Assembly: GCA_019448215.1 (NCBI GenBank) | Contig: CP080408.1 | Location: 1,178,001-1,242,000, forward strand | Reading direction: 5' to 3' | DNA: 64,000 nucleotides | Source: Thalassovita mediterranea | Lineage (GTDB): Bacteria; Pseudomonadota; Alphaproteobacteria; Caulobacterales; Hyphomonadaceae | Shown: one piece after another, positions 5,153-59,085 of the stretch | Layout: every line of letters starts with the position of its first letter | How positions within the stretch are numbered: the first letter of the stretch is position 1 | Program-made: the position numbers and the translations under genes | The notes under the pieces: model-generated | The model's input: the letters and a program-made list of their open reading frames with translations, nothing else | Told to the model about the DNA's origin: nothing | The model's database searches: none

Positions 5153-6472
5153 ATGTCAGACACCGAAACGCCCCTCGACCCGCAAGCGGTCTCCGGTTCA
5201 GAAGCGCCGAGCCACGTCTATCTGCGCGACCTGAAGGCCAAGAGCCCGACCCAGCTGCTCGCTTATGCAGAGAGCCTTGAAGTCGAGAACGCGTCTTCAC
5301 TCCGCACGCAGGACATGCTGTTTGCGATCCTTCGTGAGCTTGCGGAACGTGACATCGTCATTATCGGTCAAGGCGTTCTGGAAGTGCTCGTCGATGGCTT
5401 TGGTTTCCTCCGGTCGCCTGAATCCAACTACCTGCCGGGCCCGGACGACATCTATGTCAGCCCGAAAGTCATCAAGCAGGCCGGCCTCAAGACCGGTGAT
5501 ACGGTTGATGGCCCCATCAACGAGCCGGGCGAAGGCGAGCGGTATTTTGCGCTGAATAGCGTTAACTCGATCAATTTCGAGGATCCGGAGAAGGCGCGCC
5601 AGAAAGTCCACTTCGACAACCTGGTCCCGCTCTATCCAGAAGAGCGTCTCCACATGGAGAGCCAGGATCCGACGAAGAAAGACCGGTCCGGCCGGGTTAT
5701 CGACATCGTGTCGCCAATCGGTAAGGGCCAGCGCGCGCTGATCGTTGCGCCGCCTCGTACCGGTAAGACGGTCCTGCTGCAGAACATCGCAGCGTCGATC
5801 GAGGAAAATCACCCCGAATGCTATCTCATCGTGCTTCTGATCGATGAGCGTCCGGAAGAAGTCACCGACATGAAGCGCTCCGTGAAGGGTGAGGTTATTT
5901 CCTCGACCTTCGATGAGCCTGCGACACGTCACGTATCTGTCGCCGAAATGGTCATCGAGAAGGCAAAGCGCCTCGCTGAGCACGGCCGCGATGTTGTCAT
6001 CCTGCTCGACTCGATCACGCGTCTTGGCCGCGCTTACAACACGACCGTTCCAAGCTCCGGCAAGGTTCTGACCGGCGGTGTGGACGCGAACGCGCTGCAG
6101 CGCCCGAAGCGTTTCTTCGGCGCCGCGCGGAATATCGAGAATGGCGGCTCGCTGACCATTATCGCAACGGCGCTGATCGACACCGGCTCGCGTATGGACG
6201 AAGTCATCTTCGAAGAGTTCAAGGGTACCGGTAACTCGGAAATCGTGCTCGATCGCAAGATCGCAGACAAGCGCACCTTCCCGGCCATCGATATAATGAA
6301 GTCCGGCACGCGTAAGGAAGAGCTCATCACGCCGAAGGAACAGCTGCAGAAGATCTATATCCTCCGCCGCATCCTAAACCCGATGGGTACGTCCGATGCG
6401 GTCGACTTCCTGCTCGACAAGCTGCGTCAGACCAAGACGAATGACGAATTCTTCGAGGCAATGAAGAACTAG
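5153..6472 (+). CDS. rho: Transcription termination factor Rho
   Basis: Hexameric RNA-dependent ATPase/helicase that ends untranslated transcripts. 439 aa from the ATG at 5153 ([11 protein letters not shown]). An upstream in-frame ATG at 5084 would add 23 residues unlike Rho, so I rejected it. The RNA-binding cold-shock-like domain includes [21 protein letters not shown] (quoted in part: GFGFLRSPE, about residues 83-91). Walker A is PPRTGKT (about residue 200), followed by the catalytic LIDERPEEV, the Q-loop region and the R-loop GTGNSE. Immediately followed (2 nt gap) by mnmE. Confidence 0.97.
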
Positions 6473-6474
6473 GC

Positions 6475-7797
6475 ATGGCCGTGCAGCGCGATACGATCTG
6501 CGCGCTTGCCTCTGGTCCGCCGCCTTCGGCAATCGCTATTGTGAGGATCAGCGGACCCATGGTCCGCGAGATATGCAGGAGCGTGTTTGAAGCCGGCCTC
6601 CCTGCCCCGCGGCGGAGCGTGTTTGGCCGCTTTCTCGATGTGTCACGTGAAACAATCGATGAAGGGCTCGGCGTGTTCATGCCGGGCCCGCATTCGTATA
6701 CCGGCGAGGACACAGCAGAACTTTACCTGCATGGTGGCGCGGCTGTTATCGATCACGCCCTCGATACGCTTTGCGCTTTTGATAATGTACGACTTGCTGA
6801 ACCCGGAGAGTTTACGCGCCGTGCTTTCGAGAATGGGCGGCTCGATCTGGTTGAGGCCGAAGGGGTCGCAGACCTGATCGACGCGGAAACGCGTGCGCAG
6901 AAGTCCCTTGCATTAGACCAGCTGGGTGGATGCCTTTCGCAGGTCTATGAGGGTTGGCGCGCGGGGCTTCTTGAAGCCATGGCACTTCTTGAGGCGAGCA
7001 TCGACTTTCCCGATGAAGAGGACGCGCCGGGCGAAAGTACGGGGCCAGTGGCGGGGCTTCTGGGGCGTCTAGCCGGCGAACTCGAGACCGCAATCGACGA
7101 TGACGAGGTTGGCGAACGCATCCGCGACGGCTTTCGGGTGGCGATCATCGGCCCGCCAAATGCGGGCAAGTCATCCATTCTGAATCGTCTCGCCAGAAGA
7201 GAGGCGGCGATTGTTTCTGATATTCCAGGCACGACCCGCGATGTCGTCGAAGTTCGCCTGAAGATTGCCGGTCAGGTCGTTTGGCTCGCAGATACAGCTG
7301 GCCTCCGGGAAGCTGATGATGCCATCGAGGCAGAAGGTGTGCGCCGCGCTCTGGAGCGGGCCAAGGCGGCAGATTTGCGAATTCAGGTCCGCTCTCCTGA
7401 CACGTCATCCTCTTTTGAAAGCGCCGACCCTGAGGACATCTGCGTCTATAACAAGGCGGATATCGAGAAGAGCGAGCATGGTGCGGAGATCATTGTTCTA
7501 TCGGCGGAGACGGGCGGTGGGTTTTCCGCGCTTGAAGAGGCGCTCGGTGAAAGGATCACGAAGCTCTCTTCTTCAAGAACGGCGCCGCTCATCACCAGAC
7601 GACGTCATCGGGACGCACTCTCGACTGCTCTGTTTCACGTGAAACAAGCGAGAGCGGATCTGGAGCGCGGGTTTGGCGCCGAAATTGTTTCGGAAGATGT
7701 GCGCCTAGCGGCGCAGAAGCTTGGCGCATTGGTCGGCCGGATCGACGTTGAAGATATTCTTGGAGAAGTTTTCTCCAGCTTCTGTATCGGCAAATGA
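6475..7797 (+). CDS. mnmE: tRNA uridine-5-carboxymethylaminomethyl modification GTPase MnmE
   Basis: With MnmG it installs cmnm5 at U34 of several tRNAs. 440 aa. The N-terminal folate-binding domain starts AVQRDTICALASGPPPSAIAIVRISG. The inserted Ras-like G domain has G1 GPPNAGKSS (about residue 226), G3 DTAG and G4 NKAD. The protein ends in CIGK, the conserved C-terminal cysteine motif of the family. Starts 2 nt after the rho stop. Two parS sites lie in this coding sequence: 6639-6654, read as VSRET, and 7631-7646, read as FHVK. The gene therefore also serves as part of the centromere. Confidence 0.96.
   Translation: MAVQRDTICALASGPPPSAIAIVRISGPMVREICRSVFEAGLPAPRRSVFGRFLDVSRETIDEGLGVFMPGPHSYTGEDTAELYLHGGAAVIDHALDTLCAFDNVRLAEPGEFTRRAFENGRLDLVEAEGVADLIDAETRAQKSLALDQLGGCLSQVYEGWRAGLLEAMALLEASIDFPDEEDAPGESTGPVAGLLGRLAGELETAIDDDEVGERIRDGFRVAIIGPPNAGKSSILNRLARREAAIVSDIPGTTRDVVEVRLKIAGQVVWLADTAGLREADDAIEAEGVRRALERAKAADLRIQVRSPDTSSSFESADPEDICVYNKADIEKSEHGAEIIVLSAETGGGFSALEEALGERITKLSSSRTAPLITRRRHRDALSTALFHVKQARADLERGFGAEIVSEDVRLAAQKLGALVGRIDVEDILGEVFSSFCIGK
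6639..6654. other. parS: parS site 1 (15 of 16)
   Basis: TGTGTCACGTGAAACA, one mismatch (position 4) from the ParB-binding consensus TGTTTCACGTGAAACA. It lies inside mnmE, where it encodes V-S-R-E-T, and is about 3.3 kb from the probable origin. Confidence 0.85.
7631..7646. other. parS: parS site 2 (perfect 16-bp palindrome)
   Basis: TGTTTCACGTGAAACA, an exact match to the parS consensus. It lies near the 3' end of mnmE and is read as F-H-V-K. Perfect inverted symmetry, as needed for ParB dimer loading. Confidence 0.93.
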
Positions 7798-7880
7798 CTC
7801 ATCCCCCTGTGTTCGGGGGTGAAGATGCGCTATAGCCGCCCATATTCACAGAAATTACCAGAACCAGGGTGCGAGGAGTT

Positions 7881-9755
7881 ATGGCCTCAGCAAATGATTT
7901 CGATGTCATCGTCGTTGGCGGCGGACACGCCGGTTGCGAAGCCGCAGCTGCATCGGCGCGGCTTGGTGCGCGCACGGCGCTGATAACCCACAAGCGCGCA
8001 ACGATTGGCGAGATGTCATGTAATCCCGCGATTGGTGGCCTTGGAAAAGGACATCTGGTTCGGGAAATCGATGCTCTCGATGGGCTTATGGGCCGGATCG
8101 CTGACAAGGCGGGTATTCAGTATCGTCTGCTGAACCGGTCAAAAGGCCCTGCCGTCTGGGGCCCGCGCGCGCAGATGGACCGGAAGCTGTACCGCGAAGC
8201 GATGCAGGCCGAGCTGGTTGACTATCCCAATCTAACGATTGTCGAAGACGGCGTCGAAGACCTGACGACTGAAGACGGCTGTGTGACGGGCGTAATTGGG
8301 CTTTCGGGCGATAGCTGGAGTGCGGCCGCCGTTGTCATCACGACCGGGACCTTCCTGAAAGGCGTTATCCATCGCGGTGAAGAACGTATTCAGGCTGGCC
8401 GTGCCGGTGAAGCACCCGCAATCGGGCTTTCGGACCGTCTTTACGCGCTCGAGTTGCCGATGGGCCGGCTCAAAACGGGCACCCCTGCCCGGCTGGATGG
8501 AAAGACGATCGACTGGGATCGCCTAGAGACCCAGCCGGCCGACGACGAGCCTGTGCCCTTCTCTTTCATGAATTCGCGTGTCGATGTGCCTCAAATCGCT
8601 TGTGGCATTACGTATACGAGTGCACGTACGCATGAAATTATTGCGGAAAACCTCAACAAATCGGCTGTCTATTCAGGCGCGATCGCGGGCAAAGGGCCGC
8701 GCTATTGTCCATCCATCGAGGACAAGGTTCACCGCTTTGCCGATAAGGACCGTCACCAGATTTTCCTGGAGCCGGAAGGGCTGGACGACGATACGGTTTA
8801 TCCGAACGGGATATCGACCTCGCTCCCGACCGATGTGCAGGAAGCTTTTATCCGAACGATTGAAGGTCTGGAGAATGTCCGCATTATTCAGCCGGGCTAT
8901 GCGATTGAATACGACTATGTCGACCCGCGCGCGCTTTATCGCAGTCTGGAAGTGAAGGCGCTGAGCGGCCTTTATCTCGCTGGTCAGATCAATGGCACGA
9001 CGGGTTACGAAGAAGCTGGCGCCCAAGGTCTCGTGGCTGGCATGAATGCGGCGCGACGCGCCTTCGGCGAAGATGCTGTGCATTTTGACCGTGCCGAAGC
9101 CTATATTGGTGTCCTCGTGGATGACCTGACGACGCGCGGCGTGACGGAACCGTACCGGATGTTTACATCCCGCGCCGAATATCGTCTGGCGCTCCGCTCA
9201 GATAATGCCGACCAGCGCCTCACGCAGAAGGGTATCGAAATCGGACTTGTCTCTGGGTCTAGAAAAGAGATGTTTCACGTGAAACATCGCGCCCTGGAAT
9301 CTGGCCGTTCCTTGCTGAAATCGATTACTTTGACACCAAATGAGGCCGCTCAGCACGGCTGGAAGGTCAATCAGGACGGTCAGAAGCGTCGAGTCTGGGA
9401 TTATCTGGCGTACCCAGATATCTCCATGGCGGATATTGAAACAGTGTTCGATGAAGTGTCCGCGTTGGATCCAGCCACAAAGACCCAGCTAAGCATCGAA
9501 GCTCTTTATGCCGGGTATATCGAGCGGCAGCAGGCAGATGTAGACGCCCTGCGCCGGGACGAGACTTTGGACATACCTGCACGTTTTGACTACTCGGCTG
9601 TGGGTGGCCTCTCAAACGAGGTTCGCGGTAAGTTGGAAGCTGTCCGCCCCTCTACAATCGGCCAGGCGTCGAGGATTGAAGGCGTTACACCGGGGGCATT
9701 GGTTGCCCTGCTCGCTGCGGTGAAGCGCAGCCAGAAGCTGCGTGCGGTAAGCTAA
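7881..9755 (+). CDS. mnmG: tRNA uridine-5-carboxymethylaminomethyl modification enzyme MnmG (GidA)
   Basis: FAD- and NADH-dependent partner of MnmE in wobble-uridine modification. 624 aa. The N-terminal FAD-binding motif is [12 protein letters not shown] (about residues 11-22), followed by [22 protein letters not shown] second hallmark, [16 protein letters not shown], sits near residue 370. I chose the ATG at 7881 because GAGGAG lies 5-7 nt upstream; an in-frame GTG at 7869 lies before that site and would not use it. parS site 3 lies inside (9271-9286, read as FHVK). The stop overlaps the rsmG start (TAATG). Confidence 0.96.
9271..9286. other. parS: parS site 3 (perfect 16-bp palindrome)
   Basis: TGTTTCACGTGAAACA, an exact consensus match inside mnmG, read as M-F-H-V-K-H. 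The flanks extend the symmetry by one pair (A on the left, T on the right). Confidence 0.93.
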
Positions 9756-25143: not shown

Positions 25144-26127
25144 ATGAGCCTGACCAGCGATACCGATGTTCTGACCGAGCTTGAGCCGACCGTAGAGATC
25201 AAGGTCCGTGATGTCTTCGGCATCGACACCGACATGGTCGTGCACGGCTTCGAAACGAAGACCGAATACGTGCCGGAAATCGACGAGGCCTATCGCTTCG
25301 ATCCTCAGACGACGCTCGCCATCCTGGCGGGTTTTGAGCACAATCGCCGCGTCATGGTGCAGGGCTATCACGGCACCGGTAAATCGACGCATATCGAACA
25401 GGTCGCCGCGCGCCTCAACTGGCCGATGATCCGCATCAACCTCGACAGCCATGTCAGCCGGATCGACATGGTCGGGAAGGATGCGATCGTTCTCAAGGAA
25501 GGCGTTCAGGTCACCGAATTCCGCGAAGGCATCCTGCCATGGGCGCTGCAACGCCCGGTCGCGATCACCTTTGACGAATATGACGCTGGCCGTCCGGACG
25601 TGATGTTCGTGATCCAGCGCGTGCTGGAGGCCTCTGGCCGCCTCACGCTGCTCGACCAGAACCGAGTCATCTCGCCGAACCCGTATTTCCGCCTGTTTGC
25701 GACGACCAACACGGTCGGCCTCGGCGACACGACGGGCCTCTATCACGGCACCCAGCAGCTCAACCAGGGCCAGATGGACCGCTGGAGCATTGTCACGACG
25801 CTCAACTATCTTGAGCATGATGCCGAAGTGGAGATCGTCTCGACAAAGGCGACCGATCTCGACAAGGAGCTCCTGTCCAAGATGGTCCGCCTTGCGGACC
25901 TCACGCGGAACGCCTTCATGAACGGCGATATCTCGACCGTGATGAGCCCGCGTACCGTGATCACCTGGGCGGAGAACTACCGCATCTTCGGCGATCTTGG
26001 CCATTCCTTCCGGATGACCTTCCTCAACAAGTGCGACGAACTCGAACGCCCGCTCGTGGCAGAGATGTACCAGCGCTGTTTCGGTGAAGACCTGCCGGAA
26101 AGCGCGCTTATGGTGCGCGTCGCCTGA
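25144..26127 (+). CDS. cobS: Cobaltochelatase CobS-type AAA+ ATPase
   Basis: AAA+ subunit which, with CobT and CobN, inserts Co into hydrogenobyrinate a,c-diamide in aerobic cobalamin synthesis. 327 aa. Walker A is GYHGTGKST (about residues 75-83), Walker B is [10 protein letters not shown], sensor region [15 protein letters not shown]. No cobN or other cob gene is in the window and no cobalamin riboswitch precedes it. CobS/CobT pairs occur near the origin in many Alphaproteobacteria; a moonlighting MoxR/VWA-type role is possible (inference). Followed by cobT after 71 nt. Confidence 0.93.
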
Positions 26128-49714: not shown

Positions 49715-50734
49715 CTAGGCGGCGAGGACGCCGCGCTTGATCAGCTCTTCAGCGATCTGGACCGTATTGAGGGCTGCACCCTTGCGGAGGTTGTCAGCAA
49801 CCACCCAGAGCGACAGGCCGTGCTCGACCGTATTGTCGACGCGGATGCGGGAAACGAAGGTGTCCCACTCGCCCTTGCACTCGACCGGCGTGATGTACTG
49901 GTCTTCTTCAGGGTTATCGATGACCTGGACGCCATCGAAATTGCGGAGCGCCTCGCGCGCCTGTTCTGGCGTAATCGCCTCTTCAAACTCAATGTTCACG
50001 CTTTCGGAGTGACCGACAAAGACCGGCACGCGCACGCAGGTGACCGTGAGCTTGATGTTCGGGTCGATCATCTTGTGGGTCTCATTCCACATCTTGGCTT
50101 CCTCGTCGGTGAAGCCGTCTTCGCGGAAAGAGCCGATCATCGGGATCGCGTTGAAGGCGATCTGGCGCGGATATTCTTCAGGCTCTGGCGCATCGTTCAC
50201 GAAGATGCCCTTGGTCTGGTTCCAGAGCTCATCCATGCCGGCTTTGCCCGAGCCGGACACCGACTGATAGGTCGAGACGACGACGCGTTTGATCTTCGCG
50301 GCATCGTGCAGTGGCTTCAGCGCCATGACGAGCTGCGCCGTGGAGCAGTTCGGGTTGGCAATGATCATCTTCTTGTCATAGCCGAGGACGTCTTCGCCGT
50401 TCACTTCTGGCACGACGAGCGGAACGTCAGGGTCCATGCGCCAGGCCGACGAGTTGTCGATGACGATCGCGCCCTGCTTGCCGATCTTCTCGGCCCATTC
50501 TTTCGACAGGGTGCCGCCAGCGGACATCAGGACCACATCGACTTTGGAGAAGTCGAAATCGTCCAGCACTTCGCATTTCAGGGTCTTGTCGCCATAGCTC
50601 ACTTCGCGGCCTTTCGAGCGGCGCGAGGCGAGGGCATAGACTTCAGCAGCGGGGAAATCGCGCTCGTCCATGATGTTGAGAAGTTCGCGGCCCACATTAC
50701 CGGTGGCGCCAACGATTGCGACTTTGATAGCCAT
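49715..50734 (-). CDS. asd: Aspartate-semialdehyde dehydrogenase
   Basis: NADPH-dependent reduction of aspartyl phosphate in the lysine/threonine/methionine and diaminopimelate pathway. 339 aa. The N-terminal Rossmann loop is VAIVGATGNVGRELL (residues 4-18), and the catalytic cysteine is in IIANPNCSTAQLV (about residue 132). SSAWRMDPDVPLVVPEVN and VPVFVGHSE are family blocks. It feeds dapF and lysA, also in this window. Ends in the hairpin at 49621-49671. Confidence 0.95.
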   Translation of the reverse strand: MAIKVAIVGATGNVGRELLNIMDERDFPAAEVYALASRRSKGREVSYGDKTLKCEVLDDFDFSKVDVVLMSAGGTLSKEWAEKIGKQGAIVIDNSSAWRMDPDVPLVVPEVNGEDVLGYDKKMIIANPNCSTAQLVMALKPLHDAAKIKRVVVSTYQSVSGSGKAGMDELWNQTKGIFVNDAPEPEEYPRQIAFNAIPMIGSFREDGFTDEEAKMWNETHKMIDPNIKLTVTCVRVPVFVGHSESVNIEFEEAITPEQAREALRNFDGVQVIDNPEEDQYITPVECKGEWDTFVSRIRVDNTVEHGLSLWVVADNLRKGAALNTVQIAEELIKRGVLAA

Positions 50735-54074: not shown

Positions 54075-54395
54075 CTAGTTCTCTACCGCAATTACGGTTG
54101 CGGTGCCGCTTGCACCATTGTCGCCAGTATAGGTCGTCGAATGACCGACCTCGCTTTTGGGGTCATCGAAAATCAGACATCCATTATAGGCGTCGCTCTC
54201 AATGCACATTTTTGTTGTCGCTTCGTCGTAGGTGTAGGTGCCATTACCGGCGGCAGACGTCATCGTCCCGTCGTCGTAGAATACAGCCTGTTGGTCGTTT
54301 CCACTGTCGCTGTCGAACTTGAGCGTGATGGATGCGGCGAAGGCCGGGGCTGCGCAGATAGACAGGGCAGCAAATGCAAGTGCAGTACGTTTCAT
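54075..54395 (-). CDS. Small secreted protein of unknown function
   Basis: 106 aa with a Sec signal (MKRTALAFAALSICAAPAFA, cleavage near residue 21) and a strong ribosome binding site (GGAGG, 5 nt from the ATG). The mature part is beta-rich (ITLKFDSDSGNDQQAVFYDDG) with two cysteines (MCIESD and GCLIFD) that may form a disulfide. Not recognised. Placed between leuC and the VOC gene on the same strand. Confidence 0.75.
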   Translation of the reverse strand: MKRTALAFAALSICAAPAFAASITLKFDSDSGNDQQAVFYDDGTMTSAAGNGTYTYDEATTKMCIESDAYNGCLIFDDPKSEVGHSTTYTGDNGASGTATVIAVEN

Positions 54396-54498: not shown

Positions 54499-55896
54499 CT
54501 ATCCGATGACTCCGGTAATTGCGGCGCGGGCGGCGAGGGTGGGGCTCATCAGATGTGTGCGCCCGCCCCGGCCCTGGCGGCCTTCGAAGTTGCGGTTCGA
54601 GGTCGAGGCGCAGCGTTCGCCCGGGGCGAGGATGTCCGGGTTCATGCCGAGACACATGGAGCAGCCCGGCTCGCGCCATTCAAAGCCGGCCTCGATGAAG
54701 ACGCGGTCGAGGCCTTCCGCTTCAGCTTGGGCCCGTACAAGACCAGAGCCCGGAACGACCATGGCGCGAACGCCGTCGGCGACCTTCGATCCGGACGCGA
54801 CGCGCGCGGCTTCGCGCAGGTCTTCGATGCGCGAATTGGTGCACGAGCCGATAAAGACGCGCTGTACTGGAGTCCCAGCGATCGGCGCACCCGGGGCAAG
54901 GTCCATATAATGGAGTGCGCGTTCGATGGCAGCTTTTCGAACGGGATCTGTAATGATGGCGGGGTCCGGCGTCCTGCCCGAGAGGGGAATGGCTTGTTCA
55001 GGACTGGTGCCCCAGGTGACGGTTGGCTCCACGTCTTCGCCGCGAATTTCGACGATTCGGTCCCACTGGGCGTCGTCATCGGAATAGAGGGTCTCCCAAT
55101 AAGACTTAGCCACATCCCATGCACCTGCCTTGGGGGCTGCGGGCCGACCTTTCATGTAGGCGTACGTGGTGTCATCTGGCGCGATCAGACCAGCGCGTGC
55201 GCCGCCCTCAATCGAGAGGTTGCAGAGTGTCATCCGCCCTTCCATGGAGAGCGCACGAACCGCTTCGCCGCGATACTCCATGACGTGGCCGGTGCCGCCC
55301 GCCGTACCGATAATTGAGATGAGATGGAGGGCGAGATCCTTGGCCGTCACGCCCTCTCGCAGCTGGCCGCTGACCTCAATAGCCATGTTACGGGACTTCT
55401 GGGTGCGGAGCGTTTGCGTTGCGAGGACATGCTCGACCTCTGATGTGCCAATGCCATGGGCGAGTGCGCCGAAAGCGCCATGCGTTGAGGTGTGGCTGTC
55501 GCCGCAGACGATCGTCATACCGGGCTGGGTGCGTCCCTGCTCAGGGCCGACAACGTGCACGATGCCGTTTCGGACATCGCCCATCGGGAAGAATTCGATG
55601 CCATGCTCGGCGACGTTGCGCGAGAGCGCGGAGAGCTGGTTACGGGCGGCTTCATCGCGCACACCTTCCAGACCGGCCGCCTGATTTTCCGTCGGCGTAT
55701 TGTGATCTGCGACCGCGAGGGTGAGTTCAGGCCTGCGCACCTTGCGCCCATTTGCCTTCAGGCCGGAGAAGGCCTGCGGGGTCGTCACCTCATGAATGAG
55801 GTGGAGATCGATATAGATGAGCGCGTCGCCACTCGCGGCGTCGGTGTCCACGAGGTGGGCGTCCCAGATCTTGTCGTAAAGTGTCTTGCCCGGCAT
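54499..55896 (-). CDS. leuC: 3-isopropylmalate dehydratase large subunit
   Basis: Fe-S aconitase-type subunit. 465 aa from the ATG at 55894-55896 ([16 protein letters not shown]), with GGAGG about 11 nt upstream; a longer in-frame start lacks family support. The [4Fe-4S] cysteines are in [14 protein letters not shown] (about residue 349) and GCSMCLGMN (about 407-415). [18 protein letters not shown] is the other hallmark. leuC heads the minus-strand group leuC-secreted-VOC-leuD-leuB. Its promoter must lie in the 99 bp shared with the downstream terminator of the next gene. Confidence 0.95.
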
Positions 55897-55993
55897 GTCA
55901 GAGCGGCCTCCTGCTGCGCTGCAAAAGACCATGCAGTGGTGGCGCTGACAAGACCATCCGCCGCGTCCACCCTTTGAAACAACAGGCAAAAGA

Positions 55994-56022
55994 AAAGGGC
56001 CAGCTCATCGAGCTGGCCCTTT
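55994..56022 (-). terminator. Rho-independent terminator of the repeat-protein gene
   Basis: A perfect 13-bp stem, AAAGGGCCAGCTC (55994-56006) with GAGCTGGCCCTTT (56010-56022), around a 3-nt loop. On the minus strand it is followed by TTTTCTTTTG, so it ends the 56049-57449 gene, about 27 nt past its stop. Confidence 0.92.
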
Positions 56023-56048
56023 CCGGGTGTTTCTGGTTCAGGCTTGAC

Positions 56049-57449
56049 CTAGCAAGGGCAACCTGGGCCGACGTTCAGGACCACCAGAGAAGCGCGCTGC
56101 GTCTCGTAGCGGGTCGGTGCGACGACGGTTTCCGTCGTGCCGCGAACGCGGCGGTACTCGATCGGCTGGACGATACGACGCTCGACCGGCTGGATCACGT
56201 TACGCTGGGTCACCGCTTCGAAGTAGGATTCGGTGTACTCTTCGCGATATTCCTCGGTGACCTGCGGGATGTAGTTCACTTGGGTCTGCGGGATCGGCTC
56301 AGCTTCGACGCGGCCCGGCAGGTACTCTTCCTGATAGATCGTGTCGCGGACGATGGTTTCGGTCTGCGGACGAAGCACGCGGCGCTCGATTGGCTGGATC
56401 GTCGTCACGACAACCGGCTGGACCACATTGCGGGTAACCTGATCGACATAGACGTCTTCAACTTCGAGGACGGTACGCTCGGTGACCTGCGGAATGATCT
56501 GCTCGGTGACCTGAGGTGCCTGCTCGGTTTCAACACGAACCGGAAGACGCTCTTCCTCGTAGCGGGTCGCAGCGGTGACGGTTTCGGTCGTACCGCGAAG
56601 GATACGGCGCTCAACCGGCTGGATCATCGTGCGGACAACTGGCTGGTACACGTCGCGGCGGGTGACAGCATCGACATAGGTGTCGGTGTACTCATCGCGG
56701 GTGACTTCCGTCACGTCCTGAACAACGTTCTCGATGACCTGCGGGACTTCGTCCTGCTCAACGCGAACCGGTGCGCGGACCGTTTCATAACGGGTGTCAG
56801 CGGTAACCGTCTCGGTGCGAGGACGCGTGATGCGGCGCTGGACTGGAACGATCGTGGTGCGTTCGATCGGCTGGGTGATCTCACGGCGGGTCACGACGTC
56901 GTAATAGGTCTCGGTTGCTTCCTCGACATATTCTTCCGTCACGTCCGTGGTGACATTCTCCTGGACGGCAGGAACTTCATCCTGCTCGACGCGGACTGGA
57001 AGGTATTCTTCTTCGTAGACCGTGTCTTCGGTAACTTCTTCAACACGTGGGCGCACAATGCGGCGTTCGATCGGCTGGATGAGCGTGCGCTCGACCGGCT
57101 GGACGATTTCGCGGCGGGTCACGGCGTCAAAATAGGTTGTGGTTTCCTCGAACTCGGTGTTCTCGGTCACGCGCTCTTCGACGTTTTCACAGCAGAGAAC
57201 GCTGTCGATCGCTTGCTGCTCACCACCAAGGTAGCGAACGTCAGCGCCGCCGGAGGTGCCGCTTTGTTGAATGATTTCACGAACCTGAGCATCTGTGAGG
57301 ACGCGTTCGTCGGTTGCGGAACCAGCTGAAGAATAACGCTCTCCAACCGCTTCATTGTCCCATGTGCCCGCTTCGCCATCGGCGTGGGCAGCGAGGGGGA
57401 GTGCAGCCAAGGCAACGACACCCACCATCAGTTTCTTGCTAAGTTTCAT
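56049..57449 (-). CDS. Exported charged-repeat protein, unknown family
   Basis: 466 aa. A Sec signal, MKLSKKLMVGVVALAALPLA, with cleavage near AHA-DG (residue 23), and no lipobox. A linker to residue 105 holds a CC pair (C86, C87). From residue 106 come five tandem units: 106-181, 182-257, 258-333, 334-408 and a shorter 409-466 ending GCPC. Each starts Y-x-D/E-x-V-T-R, continues with QPVER-type steps of about 9 residues and RPxxExVT, then a P-V-R-V-E segment. Rich in Glu, Arg, Val, Thr, Pro and Gln, with no transmembrane or known domain. GGGGAAGGTGGA precedes the ATG. It looks like an elongated periplasmic or surface structural protein (inference). Confidence 0.85.
   Translation of the reverse strand: MKLSKKLMVGVVALAALPLAAHADGEAGTWDNEAVGERYSSAGSATDERVLTDAQVREIIQQSGTSGGADVRYLGGEQQAIDSVLCCENVEERVTENTEFEETTTYFDAVTRREIVQPVERTLIQPIERRIVRPRVEEVTEDTVYEEEYLPVRVEQDEVPAVQENVTTDVTEEYVEEATETYYDVVTRREITQPIERTTIVPVQRRITRPRTETVTADTRYETVRAPVRVEQDEVPQVIENVVQDVTEVTRDEYTDTYVDAVTRRDVYQPVVRTMIQPVERRILRGTTETVTAATRYEEERLPVRVETEQAPQVTEQIIPQVTERTVLEVEDVYVDQVTRNVVQPVVVTTIQPIERRVLRPQTETIVRDTIYQEEYLPGRVEAEPIPQTQVNYIPQVTEEYREEYTESYFEAVTQRNVIQPVERRIVQPIEYRRVRGTTETVVAPTRYETQRASLVVLNVGPGCPC
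56052..57134 (-). repeat. Five tandem protein repeats (about 228 bp each)
   Basis: Unit boundaries in protein: 106-181, 182-257, 258-333, 334-408, 409-466. Three units are exactly 76 residues and one is 75, so period is about 228 bp; copies are diverged rather than identical, meaning an old duplication kept by selection and not recent DNA slippage. Conserved columns: T-R near the start, Q-P, R-R, T-E-T-V, R-Y/Y-E and P-x-R-V-E. Confidence 0.85.
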
Positions 57450-57735
57450 TCCACCTTCCCCATTTCTGACCCCAACCGGCCAACTAAAGGATATTCAAGT
57501 TGCCCGAATGCCCTCGGGACCGTTGTTGATACACCAGAAATACTGGCGTCGCTCATTTCGTATACGAAACGGTAATCTTGAAACCAACTAGATTCCCTTC
57601 GCACGCGAGCAAGTCCTTGAAAAACGCTGTCCCAGAAGGGGAAATATCGGCTTTCGCGGCCTGCTTGCCCCTGCTCTGCAAGCCATATGCCGTAGTGAAA
57701 TCGGGGTATACGCGAAAAGTGTTGCAGTCAGAACA
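57450..57735. other. Gene-free stretch upstream of the repeat-protein gene
   Basis: About 290 bp between the repeat-protein start and the rplS terminator. It must hold the repeat gene's promoter and leader. A 14-bp perfect palindrome lies at 57556-57569; a related GTATACGCGAAA occurs at about 57704-57715. Small ORFs on both strands (60-66 codons) have no ribosome binding site or family and look spurious. No RNA gene recognised. Confidence 0.5.
57556..57569. promoter_or_regulatory. 14-bp perfect palindrome, possible operator
   Basis: TTTCGTATACGAAA is fully self-complementary and lies about 107 bp upstream of the repeat-protein ATG. A partial copy is 140 bp further upstream, near 57704. Possible dimeric repressor/activator site; no regulator identified. 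Confidence 0.35.
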
Positions 57736-57740
57736 CAAAA

Positions 57741-57764
57741 ACCCCGCAACTTTCGTTGCGGGGT
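57741..57764 (-). terminator. Rho-independent terminator of rplS
   Basis: ACCCCGCAAC (57741-57750) pairs with GTTGCGGGGT (57755-57764) around TTTC. Read on the minus strand it is followed by five T, which suits the end of trmD-rplS; the plus-strand side also has an A/T-rich flank. Confidence 0.92.
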
Positions 57765-57791
57765 CAAAAAATTACTAAATTTTAGGAAATT

Positions 57792-58370
57792 CTACTGCTC
57801 GGAGGTGCTTTCGCCCTCTGCAGCCTCGTTTTCGGCGGCTGCAGCTTCTGCCTCGGCGGCCGCTGCTTCAGCTTCTGCGGCCTTGCGCTTGGCTTCTTCC
57901 GCCTCGACGCGATCCTTTGCAGCCTGCTCGCGGCGGGCAGCTTTCTGCTCGACGCGCTGACGCTTGCGCTCGGTCTTGGACACGGTGACCTCGGTGGTCT
58001 CCATGCCGTGGCCGGAGGTACGCTCTGCGATACGTGCAGACTTACCGCGCAGGTTGCGCAGGTAGTAAAGCTTCGCACGGCGCACGCGGCCCTTGCGCTT
58101 GACTTCAATGCTCTCGATCATCGGGGAGACGACCGGGAAAACGCGCTCGACACCTTCACCGAAGGAAATCTTGCGGACCGTGAAGTTCTCGTTCACGCCT
58201 TTGCCGGCGCGTGCGATGCAGACGCCTTCGAAACGCTGGACGCGTTCACGGTCGCCTTCGCGAATGCGCACATTCACAGACACGGTATCGCCAGGAGAGA
58301 AATCCGGGATTTCCTTGCCTGAAGTGACGCGTGCCACTTCTTCAGCTTCGAGCTGTTCAATCATGTTCAT
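57792..58370 (-). CDS. rplS: 50S ribosomal protein L19 with long C-terminal tail
   Basis: 192 aa against about 115-130 in most bacteria. The core (residues about 1-125) is normal: [56 protein letters not shown] and [17 protein letters not shown]. From about residue 130 there is a basic helix and then an Ala/Glu-rich acidic run ([20 protein letters not shown]). The start overlaps the trmD stop by 14 nt. Confidence 0.95.
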
Positions 58371-59085
58371 CGTCCGTCTCCGACGCTCGTATTCTATGCC
58401 CGTTGAGGTAAGCGGCCCATAAATCGGGACGGCGCCCTTCTGTCAACAGTTTACTGCGGTTGAGCCGCCATTGGTCGACCTTGCTGTGATCACCCGACAA
58501 AAGTACGTCCGGCGTCGGCTGGCCCTCCCATGTCCGCGGCAGTGTATATTGCGGGTATTCAAGCAGCCCGGCCGAGAAACTCTCATCCTCGATCGAGGTT
58601 TCATTGCCGGCTACACCCGGCAGCAGCCGGAGTGTTGCTTCTATAATAGCCTGCGCTGCGACTTCCCCGCCTGCGAGAACGAAATCGCCGAGCGACACTT
58701 CTCTCATGCGGCGCTGGGTGATGACGCGCTCGTCCAGTCCCTCGAAGCGGCCGCAGAAGCAGATGAGGCCCGGCCCGCTCGCAAATTCATGGGCGAGCTT
58801 CTGTGAGAAAGGCTCCCCGCGCGGGCTGAGATAGATGAGCTCGCGGCCCTTGCGATCGATACTGTCGATTGCGGCAGCCGCCACATCGGGCCGGATGACG
58901 AGACCAGCGCCGCCGCCCGCGGGCTTGTCATCGACCTGGCGATGCTTGCCGAGGCCGAAGCTGCGAAGGTCCGTCGTTTCCAGTGACCAGATGCCCTGCT
59001 CACGCGCGCGCCCAAGTATAGAGACATCGAGCATGCCCGGAAACGCTTCCGGAAAGAGCGTTATTATAGAGACGTCGAAGGCCAT
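58357..59085 (-). CDS. trmD: tRNA (guanine37-N1)-methyltransferase
   Basis: SPOUT methyltransferase that methylates G37 next to anticodons reading G36-starting codons. 242 aa. [18 protein letters not shown] at the N-terminus, [12 protein letters not shown] (about residues 57-68), [14 protein letters not shown] and the deep-knot block [10 protein letters not shown] match the family, ending with [13 protein letters not shown]. The rplS start lies inside its 3' end. No rimM or rpsP is visible upstream in the usual order. Confidence 0.95.

Follow-up and report, generated by a model that had tools for sequence, protein, structure and literature searches.

We found that a 466-residue exported protein carries five homologous repeat units of 75 to 76 residues, and that this array is bracketed by two invariant cysteine pairs placed at one and the same repeat boundary. 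Its gene lies in the window, meaning the whole 64,000-nucleotide stretch of DNA that was analysed. In the source genome, its codons are as adapted as those of ribosomal-protein genes, which predicts that the protein is abundant. We tentatively suggest that it may be an abundant structural rod of the periplasm, with the cysteine caps joining the subunits end to end.

The gene had been proposed in a sequence-only reading, and on re-check the ORF, strand, length, and ATG start all matched (Table 1). Against six homologues of 64 to 98% protein identity, dN/dS was 0.05 to 0.25; dS exceeded 1 for the two most distant of the six, where the ratio is rough. The ORF is a real gene under purifying selection. 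It is present as a single copy in the source genome and stands alone, with rplS-trmD upstream and leuC downstream; leuC and trmD were identified by Pfam, and rplS via homologues. A consensus scan for intrinsic terminators returned 4 sites, compared with 2.1 ± 1.6 in shuffled sequence. The two that flank the gene, both on its strand, have stems of 15 and 11 pairs. The gene is thus a unit of its own, with an upstream region of about 290 bp, as the sequence-only reading had held. Between leuC and a glyoxalase-domain gene, a 106-residue protein with no Pfam match over the cut-off (window positions 54075 to 54395, minus strand) has a signal peptide-like start.

TABLE 1 Features of the repeat-protein gene and its flanks, in window positions. 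A1 and A2 are homologue alignments of 17 and 13 rows
Feature	Position	Strand	Basis
CDS, exported repeat protein, 466 residues	56049..57449	-	ORF and translation, dN/dS
Predicted Sec signal peptide, residues 1-23, cleavage after A-H-A	57381..57449	-	AxA motif, rule of thumb
N-terminal segment, residues 24-85, conserved LTDxxIRxII and DVRYxGG	57195..57380	-	Alignments A1, A2; AlphaFold
N-terminal cysteine cap, C86-C87	57189..57194	-	Invariant in A1, A2; CC in 28/28 genomes
Repeat unit 1, residues 88-162	56964..57188	-	Homologue unit alignment
Repeat unit 2, residues 163-238	56736..56963	-	Homologue unit alignment
Repeat unit 3, residues 239-314	56508..56735	-	Homologue unit alignment
Repeat unit 4, residues 315-389	56283..56507	-	Homologue unit alignment
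Repeat unit 5, residues 390-464	56058..56282	-	Homologue unit alignment
C-terminal cysteine cap, C464-P-C466	56052..56060	-	C-x-C invariant in A1, A2; 28/28 genomes
Intrinsic terminator of the repeat gene, 15-pair stem, just past the stop	55992..56024	-	Consensus scan
Intrinsic terminator ending the upstream rplS unit, 11-pair stem	57740..57765	-	Consensus scan
Palindrome TTTCGTATACGAAA, 107-120 nt upstream of the ATG, GAATC starting 26 nt before	57556..57569	.	Conservation
Conserved block GAATC-N21-TTTCGTATACGAAA, upstream of the repeat gene	57556-57599		

The N terminus was read as a signal peptide from the start, and the homologues agree. In a regular-expression scan, all 21 began with basic residues followed by a hydrophobic run and carried an AxA motif. 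A sequence scan of the window protein found no lipobox cysteine. In the N-terminal segment that follows, AlphaFold placed a helix at residues 53 to 62 and a strand at residues 69 to 74.

The repeats begin directly after the first cysteine pair. The self-similarity of residues 89 to 466 was highest at an offset of 76 (z = 16.8 versus 300 shuffles), and five full units fit when the first starts just behind C87 and the last ends at C464, so the five units of about 76 residues that had been claimed are there. The next offsets were 151, 152, and then 8 (z = 7.6), whereas offset 9 reached only z = 2.5. Therefore, the fine step is 8 residues and not the step of about 9 residues given earlier. The units contain much Val, Thr, Glu, Arg, and Pro, and the charged fraction of 32% agrees with the charged nature ascribed to them. 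We split 21 homologues into units, the window protein included; the other 7 of the 28 genomes with the gene hold near-copies, incomplete copies, or a four-unit form. The unit lengths were 75-76-76-75-75 in 20 of the 21, and unit 5 of the G113 protein is one residue longer. The border of units 1 and 2 in the G095 protein fell in an alignment gap and was placed by offset. Prolines 32 and 40 are constant in all 105 units (21 × 5), and R27, Q31, and Y59 are each kept in 103. Averaged over the units, the hydrophobic columns have a period of about 4.2, not 2 (2/1,000 column shuffles were as strong), and the charged columns have a period of 4 (0/1,000); 14 periods were tried for each, and these figures are uncorrected.

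The number of units can change, but their phase does not. Counted from the position that follows CC up to and including the first C-x-C cysteine, the array has 377 residues in 26 of the 28 genomes, 378 in G113, and 301 in G018. The G018 homologue (L084, positions 6198 to 7373, plus strand) has four units, in phase, and keeps both cysteine caps. Its pieces best match units 1/3, 4/1, 2, and 5 of L012, in that order, which marks it as recombined; one piece, 25 residues long, could be assigned to either unit 3 or unit 4. The fixed phase and this four-unit form argue for modularity. When the window units were paired with those of seven homologues, every window unit had its counterpart by position as best partner in five homologues, and four of the five units did in the other two (L011 and L045). 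Therefore, the unit duplications are older than the genera.

The earlier reading had noted cysteine pairs at both ends of the protein. C86-C87 and C464-x-C466 are invariant in both alignments, and they do not simply lie near the ends: they enclose the array where units meet. Numbered by unit column, C87 and C466 share column 1, whereas C86 is at column 76 and C464 at column 75. Therefore, both ends of the array are capped at one repeat boundary, and the array fills precisely the stretch between the two cysteine pairs. These four are the only cysteines of the mature protein in 20 of the 21 homologues. The G095 protein has one additional cysteine, in a C-terminal extension, and the additional cysteine of the G113 protein sits inside the signal peptide.

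We used AlphaFold to model the array. The full protein (17 rows) gave a pLDDT of 72.5 and a pTM of 0.29, with each unit modeled as one strand of 53 to 59 residues plus two short strands. Three units alone (51 rows) came out worse than the whole protein, with a pLDDT of 48.0 and a pTM of 0.21. Both runs give low confidence in how the parts are arranged, too low to establish the beta-solenoid or fibre raised in the sequence-only reading. From the composition and the first of these models, a beta structure of the array is likely. A Foldseek search of the PDB and BFVD with this low-pTM model returned nothing at an E value of ≤0.001.

To estimate expression, we took as codon reference 15 ribosomal-protein and elongation-factor genes of the source genome, all 15 confirmed by Pfam. 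The window was represented by 56 ORFs of at least 150 residues, which were picked mechanically and may include some that are not genes. The repeat gene had an adaptation index of 0.782, third of the 56, below rplS (0.808) and a semialdehyde dehydrogenase (0.802). None of 500 recodings of the protein with window-average codons reached 0.782 (mean, 0.588), and after a recoding-based correction for amino acid content the gene again ranked third of 56. With the same table, the homologue ranked 1st of 11 ORFs in the G113 stretch, 1st of 7 in G095, and 2nd of 17 in G018. In the genus g3 stretches it ranked 3rd of 14 (G109), 3rd of 15 (G108), and 7th of 14 (G107). Its index was above that of trmD in all eight other genomes and above that of rplS in one of the eight. 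However, trmD is a lenient control, because among the 56 window ORFs it ranks only 54th. The indices in G001, G022, and G107 were just 0.49 to 0.55, with a table that comes from another genome. Since codon usage at the level of ribosomal proteins predicts an abundant protein, high abundance is well predicted in the source genome and in most, though not all, relatives. Codon usage near that of ribosomal proteins was also seen in the window for the semialdehyde dehydrogenase (49715 to 50734, minus strand) and for a CobS-like AAA protein (25144 to 26127, plus strand).

We suggest the following scenario for the tentatively preferred periplasmic rod. The signal peptide, on which the case for export rests, would send the protein through Sec to the periplasm. 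There, the mature protein would consist of a small N-terminal segment and an extended rod of the five units. Because the caps sit at the same repeat phase, molecules placed head to tail would continue the repeat almost unbroken, and the CC of one would lie beside the C-x-C of the next. From this cap position, we infer that the periplasmic disulfide machinery, of which the genome encodes DsbB, may link the CC of one molecule to the C-x-C of another. The resulting covalent fibre or mesh would have a mechanical role, stiffening or spacing the envelope. Three points speak against a rod, namely, the pTM values of both AlphaFold models, the Foldseek null result, and the hydrophobic period, which is not the period of 2 of a simple beta strand. 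The rank of the gene in G107 likewise tells against predicted abundance. In addition, 10 of the 29 Henriciella genomes are without the gene, so any such skeleton would be dispensable.

Closure within one molecule fits nearly as well as end-to-end linkage. In this alternative, which is possible but which we consider doubtful, the product would be a monomeric abundant exported protein. The caps would bond to each other within the molecule, giving a ring or hairpin, or each pair would close on itself and stabilise the ends of a spacer rod. A ring closure needs its cysteines at one boundary, and columns 76/1 and 75/1 supply exactly that; all of the evidence for abundance counts equally here. However, a closed ring would tolerate the change from five units to four in G018 less easily than a rod, and AlphaFold gave no confident compact domain for the full protein.

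We then asked how widely the gene is distributed. With a single-protein query, 20 of 61 relatives carried it. A profile search found it in 28 of 105 genomes of the family Hyphomonadaceae, covering 4 of 10 genera. In the order, 24 of the 398 genomes sampled had it, every one from that same family. The only positive among 385 sampled genomes of the class was the source genome itself, and the 3 among 349 of the phylum were two Henriciella genomes and one match that we rejected; these family, order, class, and phylum sets overlap. The rejected match (G844; E = 2e-4 over 32 columns) lies in a frame that is HemX-like by eye and has a VQPVVQTIVQPVV stretch. Plasmids, phages, and viral contigs had no homologues. 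Within Henriciella, the genus to which we assign the source genome, 19 of 29 genomes have the gene. The homologues outside it come from three other genera of the family, two of which are represented by one genome each (G095, 74% complete; G113, 80% complete).

All five other Henriciella loci with the gene that were examined at rplS (G001, G009, G012, G018, and G022) share the arrangement of the window, with the gene downstream of rplS. In 7 of the 10 Henriciella genomes without it, leuC is within 1.5 kb of rplS and the repeat gene is missing between them. Other ORFs lie between rplS and leuC in G028, and leuC is outside the flank examined in G016 and G024. This fixed location suggests that the gene was inherited in Henriciella with repeated loss. 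In a TrmD-RplS tree of 27 chosen genomes, the presence/absence label changes 7 times, which is not clearly below shuffled labels (mean, 8.3 for "absent"; 104/500 as low). In all three loci read from genus g3 (G107, G108, and G109; loci L079, L080, and L083), the gene is preceded on its own strand by ahpC and ahpF, and a LysR-type gene is divergent. These neighbours were checked by Pfam in G107 (L079) only, where a GNAT gene intervenes. The ahpC/ahpF neighbourhood is a possible link to oxidative stress. In G095, the divergent neighbour is a glycosyltransferase-like gene.

These neighbourhoods bear on two further explanations. The first is a surface or secreted protein (an adhesin, a matrix component, or a particle attachment factor) that would leave the periplasm and use the repeats as a stalk. 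The signal peptide, the repeats, the predicted high expression, the patchy presence in the genus, and the glycosyltransferase-like gene adjoining in G095 are all consistent with it. We consider it unlikely, given that the protein has no lipobox and that Pfam, NCBIfam, and PDB searches found no known adhesin or sorting domain; the annotation of neighbouring genes, among which export genes might lie, covered part of them. The second, which we think quite unlikely, is a redox- or metal-responsive envelope protein in which the repeats would be a scaffold and the four conserved cysteines would bind metal or act as a thiol switch. The ahpC-ahpF and LysR-type neighbours of the g3 genomes point in this direction, but the gene is downstream of rplS in Henriciella instead. 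Moreover, Pfam found no catalytic or metal-binding domain in the query and the 13 members scanned, and ribosome-level codon usage would be unusual for a sensor.

Searches with the repeat protein gave no credible match in Pfam, NCBIfam, PHROGs, or the PDB sequences, in keeping with the earlier statement that no family was recognised. The 13 members scanned against these libraries include the query. The strongest Pfam name was WH_DRP, which we take to be a plant winged-helix family; it matched 5 of the 13 members (best E = 3.3e-06) and was rejected as compositional. Its match to L081 scored 27.3 bits against a cut-off of 27 and covers 27 residues, and no stretch passes alone. Because it is just over the cut-off there, the L081 repeat protein (6839 to 8326, plus strand) is a possible source of false annotation. 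AceK_regulatory, which matched 8 of the 13 (best E = 0.0057), was set aside as compositional as well, and so were the PHROGs matches, of which the best was to phrog_28104 (3 of 13, E = 0.00046; no function). In the literature on Henriciella repeat proteins and genomes, Hyphomonadaceae secretomes, and periplasmic disulfide fibres, the gene was absent from the titles among the matches listed. The protein family is new to the four libraries; exported repetitive structural envelope proteins are an already known kind.

Two such kinds invite comparison. The functional amyloid solenoids FapC and CsgA are exported, repetitive, and beta-rich. FapC was the top Foldseek row for the low-pTM model (E = 0.029, probability 0.03), which is not significant. 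In contrast to these solenoids, the window protein has charged, proline-containing units with cysteine caps. The G5-E repeats of SasG and Aap form extended, charged, single-layer beta rods, rich in Pro, Thr, and Val, in wall proteins of Gram-positive bacteria. However, Pfam G5 had no match in the query or the 13 members scanned.

The sequence-only reading had likened the repeats, in style only, to those of eukaryotic alveolins, and it recognised no bacterial family for such Val/Pro/charged repeats. The library searches agree with the latter, but the order does hold a precedent, since "articulins" of Caulobacter have been published (PMC6212826, available text). The likeness to protist alveolins, articulins, and epiplastins lies in charged repeats with Val/Ile and Pro, in little Gly, and perhaps in predicted beta and coil. 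According to the available text of PMC6212826, the epiplastin acid-base-dyad domain has V+I 33 ± 7, charged residues 35 ± 6, K 9 ± 4, T 3 ± 2, A 1 ± 1, and G 0.4 ± 0.7. The query has V+I 23.3, charged residues 31.8, K 0, T 14.3, A 3.4, and G 1.3; its charged fraction fits and V+I is 1.4 SD low, whereas T, K, and A do not fit. The same text gives the articulin subclass more than 3 VPV modules; we counted 1 in the query and 0 to 2 in the 21 homologues. Alveolins have a 12-residue period in the available text of PMC4303705, and here offsets 76 and 8 dominate, with 12 outside the 25 highest. With regard to the strand and coil of alveolins, AlphaFold calls the array strand, but its confidence collapses on three units. 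The protist proteins also form skeletons on the inner face of the plasma membrane, whereas the window protein has a bacterial signal peptide. Thus, the likeness is indeed one of style.

We next looked for the alveolin family itself. Pfam IMCp (PF12314) had no match in the query, in the 13 A2 members, or in the whole genome. Among 299 genomes sampled from the order, it matched in two, both from genus g18; the control, Caulobacter vibrioides, was positive. By eye, the two IMCp-positive proteins (L087 and L088) begin with a signal peptide. They also carry VYVDRPVEKK-type repeats, and their cysteine-rich tail ends in CSGCGGKRH. Their signal peptide and tail speak against reading them as a cytoplasmic skeleton. 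These proteins, taken here as examples of the Caulobacter articulin-like kind, resemble the window protein in their order, their signal peptide, their tandem Val/Pro/charged repeats, and their cysteines past the repeats. They differ in having short Lys-rich repeats, many cysteines, a Gly-rich tail, and the IMCp match. Homology of the repeats was not detectable in the one protein compared, L088. There, hhalign aligned 18 signal-peptide columns only, at 1.5% probability, with the limited power of a single sequence against a shallow profile. The best blastp E value was 0.012 without and 1.3 with a low-complexity filter. That the protein is a bacterial epiplastin, sharing ancestry with the Caulobacter "articulins" of PMC6212826, is therefore very improbable: the charged Val/Pro-containing repeats, the published Caulobacter cases, and the signal peptides of the IMCp-positive proteins favour it, but the Thr, Lys, and VPV counts, the IMCp and offset-12 results, and the hhalign alignment do not, and composition has already mostly refuted it.

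A bolder form of the preferred periplasmic rod is a skeleton of a kind not yet described. It would be an abundant covalent polymer with a whole number of 76-residue units per subunit and the repeat kept in phase across subunits, and it would be a convergent, exported counterpart of the alveolin networks of protists. We regard this as somewhat unlikely. Caps at a matching repeat phase would nevertheless be a simple rule for building a covalent periplasmic fibre. If the protein is as abundant as predicted, it would be a major envelope component of several marine Hyphomonadaceae that has no name in the family libraries searched. A signal peptide opens the proteins of this family as well as the two IMCp-positive ones, which makes a role in the envelope likelier than one in the cytoplasm. 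This bears on the suggestion, made in the available text of PMC6212826, of articulin-like skeletal proteins in bacteria of the order.

Finally, we examined the region upstream of the gene. An Rfam scan of window positions 55000 to 59000 gave no match. The six gene copies from other genera have no TTTCGTATACGAAA within 2 mismatches; L042 and L045 match it with 3 mismatches, like L014, and the remaining four match it with 5. The GAATC element was considered as a site of the cell-cycle system of CcrM and GcrA. However, the extended motif that the available text of PMC7987155 quotes for that system, YGAKTCK, is not matched by it, and we keep it as a lead only. Across the 19 Henriciella copies, the 14-base palindrome starts 70 to 126 nt upstream of the ATG, and it is exact in 11, with one mismatch in 6, two in 1, and three in 1. 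GAATC begins 25 to 26 nt before it in 17 of the 19, and TTTCGTATACGAAA is unique in the source genome within 1 mismatch. The gene had also been called a regulated unit, and this block, conserved in the genus, lends that some support as a candidate element.
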